DNA of 64,000 nt from Talaromyces rugulosus. Its lineage: Eukaryota > Ascomycota > Eurotiomycetes > Eurotiales > Trichocomaceae. The DNA lies in NCBI RefSeq assembly GCF_013368755.1, contig NC_049563.1, forward strand, positions 3,038,001-3,102,000, in the 5' to 3' direction. The notes beneath the pieces were generated by a model. It worked only from the letters and a program-made list of their open reading frames with translations. It did no database searches and was not told the origin of the DNA. The position numbers were made by a program, and so were the translations under genes. Positions 43,352 through 46,006 of this stretch are shown here, one piece after another (position 1 is the stretch's first letter; each line of letters opens with the position of its first letter).

Positions 43352-43849
43352 GGTGACAAGATTCAGAGCTATATGGTTTTTATAGCCGTGAATACAGAAA
43401 CCAACGAGATGTGGGAATCCAATCAACATCAAGGGGCAACTAGCGACAATCCCATTCCCCTACCAGGAGGCAAATACAAATTATACCTGGAGTTGAGATC
43501 GGAAACTCCTCCGTACAAAAACTCTCATTGGCTTGTGCCACAAGAATCTAATTCGCCCCTTTTTTGGAAGTTTTCCGATGGTCGTGTCGATATCACGCAT
43601 GATGGAAGTGAATCGGGATTTTTATTCTCAGAATGCGAGATGGAACCATCAAATTGTTACGTGCTAGAAGTAGAGCCGAAGGACTGGGATGAGAAACCCT
43701 TGTGCAAGATGCAATATTACCTCACTGCGCGTCCAACAGGTGCACTTGGTAACCGGGTGCCTAAACCTTGCCAACCTCCCTCACGCGCGGTGACTATTGA
43801 CGGGGATAGCGATCTGACAATATGTATAAGCTATAGCCAGCACCAATAA
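43352..43849 (+). CDS. Tandem small-protein family, member 1 (unknown function)
   Basis: Single exon. The open frame begins at 43244, but a TATA box at 43239 makes the ATG at 43352 the likely start (165 aa). No signal peptide or membrane segment is evident. The N-terminal strand-like segment SYMVFIAVN precedes the core TSDNPIPLPGGKYKLYLELR (DNP at residues 33-35, G-x-Y at 41-43) that is shared with the two following genes. The rest alternates hydrophobic and polar residues, with Trp and aromatic positions (SHWLVPQES, LFWKFSDGRVDI), and ends with a strand (DLTICISYSQHQ), suggesting a beta-sandwich-like fold. No known family is recognised. The promoter carries the module at 43211-43245. Confidence 0.7.
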   Translation, partial: GDKIQSYMVFIAVNTETNEMWESNQHQGATSDNPIPLPGGKYKLYLELRSETPPYKNSHWLVPQESNSPLFWKFSDGRVDITHDGSESGFLFSECEMEPSNCYVLEVEPKDWDEKPLCKMQYYLTARPTGALGNRVPKPCQPPSRAVTIDGDSDLTICISYSQHQ

Positions 43850-43993
43850 ATAGATTTATCTCCTTTATTTATTCAATTACAAACTGAATGCTACATAGTG
43901 TACGTGTATGTAACTATAATTACGACTATGACTGTATCTTTATATGTATGCACGTGAGTCAATGTAGGATTATGACTACAATGTAGGCAGGCA

Positions 43994-44033
43994 TGACTCA
44001 GTCGGTAATGACTGTACAGAGAAAAATATAAAT
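43994..44033 (+). promoter_or_regulatory. Promoter module copy 2: TGACTCA, TGACTGTAC, TATAAAT
   Basis: TGACTCA at 43994-44000, TGACTGTAC at 44009-44017 and TATAAAT at 44027-44033, 123 bp from TATA to the ATG at 44150. Order and approximate spacing equal copy 1, although the bases between differ. Confidence 0.65.
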
Positions 44034-44149
44034 TGATCGCTGACCTGGTAAATTCAAGGATTATTTCTCTCTCTCTTCAGGTGTGAAATACTATCCAAAA
44101 GATTAGAATTTTACTGACGACTTTTAATTTTCCACTTAAGGTTACCATA

Positions 44150-44674
44150 ATGACAGACCAAAACTCAACAACATCTTCTACCAGTCCTAATGGTCCTGAA
44201 TACGCTACATACAACCTAGCCTTCAACAAATCCGATGGCGACGTCGAGAAATGGATTTATAGCAGCGTATATGGGTCAAAAAAAGAAGATCCCGTCATAC
44301 TACCGGCAAGTGGGAGATACAAAGTGAGGTTGGAATTCAACTATGTCTCCAAACCAGAAGCTTTTGCTTGGCAACTAGTGAAAGGCCAGCCTACTGATGG
44401 AAATTACTTGGCCCTGCTCTCTGGAGACCTTTACAAGCAAATTATCTACATTCAGTGCATGGAGACTGGAAAGCATATAGCTCATCCCGTCGAACTCGAC
44501 GAACCGCGTGCAGAACTTGAATTGGGTGAGTTTGAACTATATCCAGGGTCCTATGAGTTTTTACTTCTCCTTTTGAAGGTGCAAATACATTGGTTCCTTG
44601 AAGAAGATGAAGATATTATCAAACTCGTTGAAGAAAAGGACCGAAACATCAAGTTCTTCGTGAAGGTGAAATAG
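44150..44674 (+). CDS. Tandem small-protein family, member 2 (unknown function)
   Basis: Single exon, 174 aa, 300 bp after member 1. A Ser/Thr-rich N-terminus (STTSSTSPNG) is followed by EYATYNLAFNKSDGDVEKW and the shared core EDPVILPASGRYKVRLEF (EDP at 46-48, G-x-Y at 55-57). A Trp-containing strand (AFAWQLVKGQPT) sits where member 1 has SHWLVPQES. The C-terminal part is acidic with a hydrophobic run (YEFLLLLLKVQIHWFLEED), too charged at its edges for a clear membrane span, and ends in a strand (NIKFFVKVK). No domain is recognised. The promoter module at 43994-44033 matches that of member 1, so the two are probably co-regulated. Confidence 0.7.
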   Translation: MTDQNSTTSSTSPNGPEYATYNLAFNKSDGDVEKWIYSSVYGSKKEDPVILPASGRYKVRLEFNYVSKPEAFAWQLVKGQPTDGNYLALLSGDLYKQIIYIQCMETGKHIAHPVELDEPRAELELGEFELYPGSYEFLLLLLKVQIHWFLEEDEDIIKLVEEKDRNIKFFVKVK

Positions 44675-45490
44675 GCCTCTGTCAGACGCCTGCCTATAGA
44701 CGAAGCCCTTGGGGTTCAACTGAGACATCATGGTTAGGGTACTGGTGGCATTATTGATGAGCGAGATCCGATTTTCAAGTTGTTCGTTAGATTAGAGCCC
44801 TCCACTATAATCTGATAACACCAATCCACACATTCATCCAGACATAATTAAGCTCTACGATACGAAACACGTAGTCAAGTTTTCGATATAATCAGAATCT
44901 ATATTAGTATTAAATATAACCAATTAGCTGTAGAGTCATGGTATAACTCGAATTTATTTGTGTTTTCCTTCTCTTGTTCTCCGACTACGGCGACTGGCAT
45001 CTAAACCTAGAATGGACAAATAACCTGTCGTATATTCATGATTTAAATATCCTCAGTGTATCTTGTTTCAGTGTAAAATGTGTAAAATACCAAAAAATGC
45101 GTCTTTATTTTGTACTACTAGTGTTACTCATTTGGGGGGGAAAGGTTGAATTTGTTCTACCTAAGACTTTTTATAGAAGGCTGAAACGATGTATGCAAGG
45201 CCTCTTGACTCCTTGTAAATATTTATATTCCGTTTTCTGATAAATTATAACTAGGATAAAAAACAATCTCTAATCGGTGTGTTCCCTTTTTATGTGTTTG
45301 AAATGCCTCGATCGGGGTTCTTTGTCGTCCCTACTGTTTGCTTTCCTTCGGTGACTCCCATCTCCCTTCGGTGACTCCCATCTTCCTTCACTGACATTTA
45401 TATTCTTTCTGCGTCTCCCATTTTCCTCCTGCGTCTCCCACCTTCCTTCTTCGCAGTGGCGTCAAAAAGCTCCACCACAAACCATCAAAC
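44675..45490. other. AT-rich spacer between members 2 and 3
   Basis: 816 bp. A frame at 44974-45240 has no resemblance to the family and is not called. The last 150 bp hold the 20-bp tandem repeat and the promoter of member 3. Confidence 0.45.
45345..45444 (+). repeat. Degenerate 20-bp tandem repeat upstream of member 3
   Basis: About five units of 20 bp. The first two are near-identical (CCTTCGGTGACTCCCATCT at 45345 and 45365). The third keeps only CCTTC and a TGAC core, and the last two carry TGCGTCTCCCA. TGACTCC occurs at 45352-45358 and 45372-45378, one base off the TGACTCA of the other two promoters. Confidence 0.75.
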
Positions 45491-46006
45491 ATGAATACCA
45501 GCGATGTCAACGAGAAAGGCACAGCTGAGCCTTGCTACATGCTGGCCCTCCTGGACGAATCAAAAAATGAATCATCAACGACTGAAAGCGGCTGCACACC
45601 CGATAATCCCCTCATCGTAAAGAAAGGAAGCTACGGGCTGTGGATCAAGATGATAGCAGACTACCAGCCTTACGAATATCCACACCTACACGTGAGAGCA
45701 ACCAAGCCAAAGCGTATTCCTCGTTGCAAGCTTCCATTTTTCAACAAGAAGGAGTCAACCAGGATTGCCGTCGTTTTTAAATCCGAGTCTGGTCCTGAGA
45801 AATCGGAGAAAGTGGAAACAACACCACTTCACGACGACCTAATGTCTTTGGGAAAACACAGCCTAGGCCTGGGGGACTTACATATACTTCTCGTTGGGTA
45901 CATACCTGTAGATATTATCGAGTATAATGCCAAGGGGGATCCGGTTGACCACCTAACCGATTTTCTCTCTGTGAACTTGGATTTTTGGCTGCGTGTTGTG
46001 GACTAG
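45491..46006 (+). CDS. Tandem small-protein family, member 3 (unknown function, more diverged)
   Basis: Single exon, 171 aa. PCYMLALLDESKN aligns with the first strand of members 1 and 2, and the core PDNPLIVKKGSYGLWIKM (DNP at 38-40, G-x-Y at 46-48) has the same spacing. A basic segment follows (RATKPKRIPRCKLPFFNKK), then IAVVFKSESGPEKSEK, and the protein ends in strands (LHILLVGYIPVDI, DFLSVNLDFWLRVVD). Identity with the other two is low outside the core. No signal peptide. Like its neighbours it is intronless and in AT-rich DNA, suggesting a local, fast-evolving expansion. Function unknown. Confidence 0.68.
   Translation: MNTSDVNEKGTAEPCYMLALLDESKNESSTTESGCTPDNPLIVKKGSYGLWIKMIADYQPYEYPHLHVRATKPKRIPRCKLPFFNKKESTRIAVVFKSESGPEKSEKVETTPLHDDLMSLGKHSLGLGDLHILLVGYIPVDIIEYNAKGDPVDHLTDFLSVNLDFWLRVVD

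Follow-up and report, generated by a model that had tools for sequence, protein, structure and literature searches.

The tandem genes

The window analysed here is a stretch of 64,000 nucleotides from Talaromyces rugulosus (NC_049563.1, forward-strand positions 3,038,001 to 3,102,000), part of a 5.9 Mb contig, C3, in a genome of 35.8 Mb on 6 contigs. It holds three short genes, each a single open reading frame (ORF), arranged in tandem on the plus strand: p1 (window 43349..43849, 166 amino acids), p2 (44150..44674, 174 amino acids, the most diverged) and p3 (45491..46006, 171 amino acids). With p4 and p5 from a second locus they probably form an undescribed family, by name so far found in Talaromyces only, that has a probable RhoGDI-like β-sandwich.

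Each of the three carries a core hairpin motif: DNPIPLPGGKY in p1 (window 43445..43477, plus strand), EDPVILPASGRY in p2 (44285..44320, plus) and DNPLIVKKGSY in p3 (45602..45634, plus), the last at residues 38-48, with model strands at 41-44 and 46-57. The initial annotation described a tandem set of three small plus-strand genes sharing a core, and this description stands apart from a 3-base shift of start. The N-termini of p1, p2 and p3 lack a hydrophobic signal-like stretch by a Kyte-Doolittle proxy (which is not a signal-peptide predictor), and each of p1-p5 would be a single-domain, acidic, all-β and apparently non-secreted protein.

A second locus and the kinship of the copies

Searched against its own genome, p3 gave weak matches to p1 (E 0.24) and to another site on C3, near 5.387 Mb (E 0.85), where two further relatives, p4 and p5, lie on the minus strand (C3:5386-5389 kb). 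p5 (277 amino acids) matches the T. rugulosus record TRUGW13939_06652 (P0002) identically from the first Met, and p4 is 41% identical to it over p5 query residues 3-180 (E 2.8e-18). The reading frame of p4 (C3:5386746-5387222, minus strand; also L004 1429-1863 and L006 9483-9782) is broken in mid-domain, as a pseudogene, an unusual intron or an assembly error could each produce. Eight queries (p1, p2, p3, p5, P0001, P0004, P0005 and P0009) found no paralogues in this genome beyond the two loci; one search was run at E up to 0.001 and the others at E up to 10, with the best candidates scored, so that the paralogue count is a lower bound.

With one group left out at a time, a profile of the remaining groups recognises the p1, p3 and p5 groups. 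The genes are intact and conserved, and p1, p3 and p5 are homologous. The initial annotation proposed a single family from old local duplication, and for p1 and p3 (30% identity) that proposal is supported; for p2, which has 19% identity to p1, it is probable only. The competing explanation is that p2 is unrelated and that the family consists of p1, p3, p4 and p5. A leave-one-out hmmsearch profile did not set p2 (E 2.6) or its relative P0005 (E 0.43) apart from shuffled decoys, the shuffle test gave 132/1000 for p2-p3, and the 18 pairs that set p2 or P0005 against another group reached a Z of only -0.1 to 3.9, all of which would fit an unrelated p2. Set against this are a marginal hhalign link of the p2 group (E 0.001, probability 21%), the shuffle results for P0005-P0007 (2/500) and P0001-P0005 (3/500), which are the best of 42 pairs involving p2 or P0005, the strand order shared by the p2 and p3 models, and the place of p2 in tandem with p1 and p3; the shuffle test for p1-p2 gave 2/1000. 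Membership of p2 is probable on balance, and its exclusion correspondingly unlikely.

Two features are seen in p5 and its relative P0004. First, the core motif of p5, TSPLYIPRGAY (P0002 residues 107-117), is soon followed by another of like form, SHPIEFPKGSY (residues 136-146), and P0004 likewise has a second core motif, as though the hairpin had been repeated. Second, the N-terminal tails of both contain DLVFVQ twice, flanked by acidic residues, in p5 at residues 17-22 and 40-45 of P0002 (C3:5388617-5388634 and 5388548-5388565, minus strand); these we take to resemble SUMO-interaction motifs. Genome-wide there are four matches to DLVFVQ (one of them DFVFVQ), two of them in p5, against two for the reversed control pattern. 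The matches outside p5, on C1 and C2, may be due to chance, and the ORFs around the one on C2, viewed by eye, showed no relation.

Relatives in other genomes

Relatives of all three tandem genes were found, as the initial annotation would expect of a real family, by a search that reaches only proteins sharing exact 5-residue words with the query. P0001 is 94% identical to p1 and was its sole match at E up to 1; P0005 is 71% identical to p2 and of the same length; p3 is related to P0006 (91%), P0007 (70%), P0008 from T. islandicus (57%) and P0009 (46%, 229 amino acids); and P0004 is 64% identical to p5. The annotation had suggested a search for orthologous clusters in other Eurotiales, and here the outcome is partial: relatives exist, and the two that carry a species name both belong to Talaromyces, one to T. 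islandicus and the other to T. rugulosus itself. The records of P0005 and P0007 name the same longest contig, of 133,954 bases, and therefore the linkage of p2 and p3 is probably kept in that genome. Since a separate orthologue exists in other genomes for each of p2, p3 and p5, the copies would predate the split of those species, with old duplications giving rise to p1, p2 and p3 and to p4 and p5.

Outside fungi, the p3 query gave 17 pattern matches in viral contigs and the P0007 query 52 in bacterial and archaeal genomes, none of which was confirmed by tblastn. In the literature (searched for the locus tags, T. rugulosus W13939, fungal, Aspergillus or Talaromyces RhoGDI, and RhoGDI with PDE6D and UNC119; subscription journals are thinly covered) the family appears in none of the titles or abstract starts listed.

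Known families and the predicted fold

No convincing match to p1-p3 was found in Pfam, NCBIfam, PADLOC or PHROGs, and none among PDB sequences for p1 or an 11-row profile (best E 0.19 and 0.038), so at sequence level the annotation was right, within these libraries, to assign no known family. One PHROG of unassigned function matched p2 at E 0.074. Sub-threshold matches to DUF2399 (E 0.0056 for p5 and 0.0026 for one member of A5), to VasI (E 0.21 and 0.088) and to cpYpsA on P0007 (E 0.14) were taken as chance.

The predicted models have an immunoglobulin-like (Ig-like) β-sandwich, a feature of RhoGDI. RhoGDI was the top-ranked fold match with two separately built alignments, the whole domain being covered, and residues 11-171 of the p3 model superpose on RhoGDI 67-200. 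The AlphaFold2 model of p2, at a predicted local distance difference test score of 55, has its strands in the same order as p3, and its first PDB match is RhoGDI; the common fold and strand order that the annotation proposed as a check are therefore seen in these two models, one of them of low confidence. The family resembles the Ig-like C-terminal domain of RhoGDI (PF02115), its lipid-binding half, in predicted fold and in the extent of the β-sandwich, and by eye both have hairpins that turn at G-x-Y or G-x-x-Y. Judged by the models, the fold is likely to be RhoGDI-like.

The N-terminal regulatory arm, residues 5-55 in the RhoGDI of Tuber borchii, is a defining part of RhoGDI according to PMC2362126, and p1-p3 are without it: the first predicted strand starts at residue 13 in p3 and 20 in p2, and the aligned strand in p1 at residue 8. 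That source gives L77/F102/W194 as the hydrophobic triad of the prenyl pocket. In a hand-placed and uncertain register, column 41 is hydrophobic in 11/11 members, column 165 is F or V in 9/11 (and P in the p1 pair, where the alignment is poor), and column 21 is Arg or Lys in 4/11. Profile comparison with RhoGDI gave at best a short, out-of-register alignment (E 0.013), which weakened once p2 was removed (E 0.13, 7/100 shuffles); homology by profile was not established. If p1-p3 were true RhoGDI paralogues that had lost the arm and still regulated Rho GTPases directly, the fold ranking would be explained; however, PF02115, with the HMMER filters on and E up to 10, matched 0/11 members, and genome-wide that profile finds a single RhoGDI gene (C3:2133297-2134057), a separate gene of several exons, in contrast to the short single-ORF tandem genes. 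With the arm missing too, such paralogy is very improbable.

A stronger competitor is a generic E-set or immunoglobulin-like adaptor that binds proteins through strands or loops and has no lipid pocket, the rank of RhoGDI reflecting only long strands. Filamin, StcE, complement, C2 and cytokine-receptor domains trail RhoGDI by about 0.3-3 Z units, and the out-of-register match of the GxY hairpin to RhoGDI is what a generic hairpin would give. The TgrO1-like Ig domain (PF24612), also E-set/Ig-like, matched P0005 residues 83-139 (E 5.3e-4, 20.6 bits), although below the curated cut-off of 27.9 and in 1/11 members; p1-p3 have no hydrophobic leader. The first place of RhoGDI in both alignments, across the whole domain, argues against this explanation, which we nevertheless regard as a serious one, falling somewhat short of even chances.

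Genomic setting

The tandem set is bordered upstream by a Zn2Cys6-type transcription factor in two ORFs (window 40139-42461) and on the other side by a SET-domain ORF on the opposite strand (46506-47348). GC content is 41.5% in window 42001-46000 vs 47.3% in the whole window. A pyrimidine-rich 20-bp tandem repeat of 5.3 copies (45343-45449) ends 41 bases before p3 starts. Further along, one ORF (51260-51739) combines HTH_psq and Tc5 transposase DNA-binding domains and is probably a transposase fragment. Near p4 and p5, all on the minus strand, are genes for a CHAT-domain protein that also matches TPR below threshold (L007 4190-7321), a secretory lipase (L007 2353-3753) and a PigL_N protein (L006 2825-3322).

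PigL_N is found in STAND-type proteins, and the CHAT and PigL_N genes around the second locus, together with the low identity of the tandem paralogues, could hint at fast-evolving genes for recognition of self/non-self or of other organisms, possibly working with those neighbours. The relatives at 57-71% identity, with equal or near-equal lengths, instead suggest constraint over turnover. The neighbours of p1-p3 are ordinary (an M20 peptidase, the Zn2Cys6 factor, SET and PLA2_B), and the predicted fold points to a RhoGDI-like/E-set binding domain. The speculation of the initial annotation, self/non-self or environmental-response genes, gets no direct support here, and recognition genes are an improbable explanation.

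Proposed function

The reading we favour, by a modest balance, is that p1-p5 are one Talaromyces family of old duplicates with a RhoGDI-like E-set fold, each an arm-less domain for binding a partner or the partner's lipid tail. The fold would be closest to the E-set domain of RhoGDI, minus the arm that seizes the GTPase, and the partner or its tail would be held on or between the two β-sheets. The model for this is PrBP/δ (PDE6δ), which according to PMC5758567 has the fold of RhoGDI, lacks the arm and takes up cargo by trapping its soluble fraction. Carried over to p1-p3, we infer, the mode would be passive trapping of free cargo and not the true action of a GDP-dissociation inhibitor; RhoGDI itself binds prenylated Rho GTPase and inhibits the release of GDP. 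The solubilising factors PrBP/δ and UNC119 are marked by an arm-less β-sandwich with a pre-shaped hydrophobic cavity. Their profile, PF05351, matched 0/11 members at E up to 10; a search of the genome with it gave no match, and with the control equally silent that search is uninformative. Binding of a lipid or prenyl tail is a prediction from analogy that we hold to be doubtful; otherwise the domain would be a plain sandwich for protein-protein interaction. That p1-p5 are an arm-less, RhoGDI-shaped family duplicated in tandem within one genus, with lipidated or hydrophobic cargo that differs from copy to copy, the set being a fungal counterpart of PrBP/δ-UNC119 missed by sequence profiles, is rather less likely still.

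If the favoured reading is true, filamentous fungi have single-domain proteins, related to RhoGDI or resembling it, that escape sequence searches, binding of lipids or prenyl peptides would be a concrete assay for an orphan gene family, and the locus would be a case of divergence that leaves tandem copies barely alignable. If the fold alone is true, p1-p5 would still be a new small E-set family.
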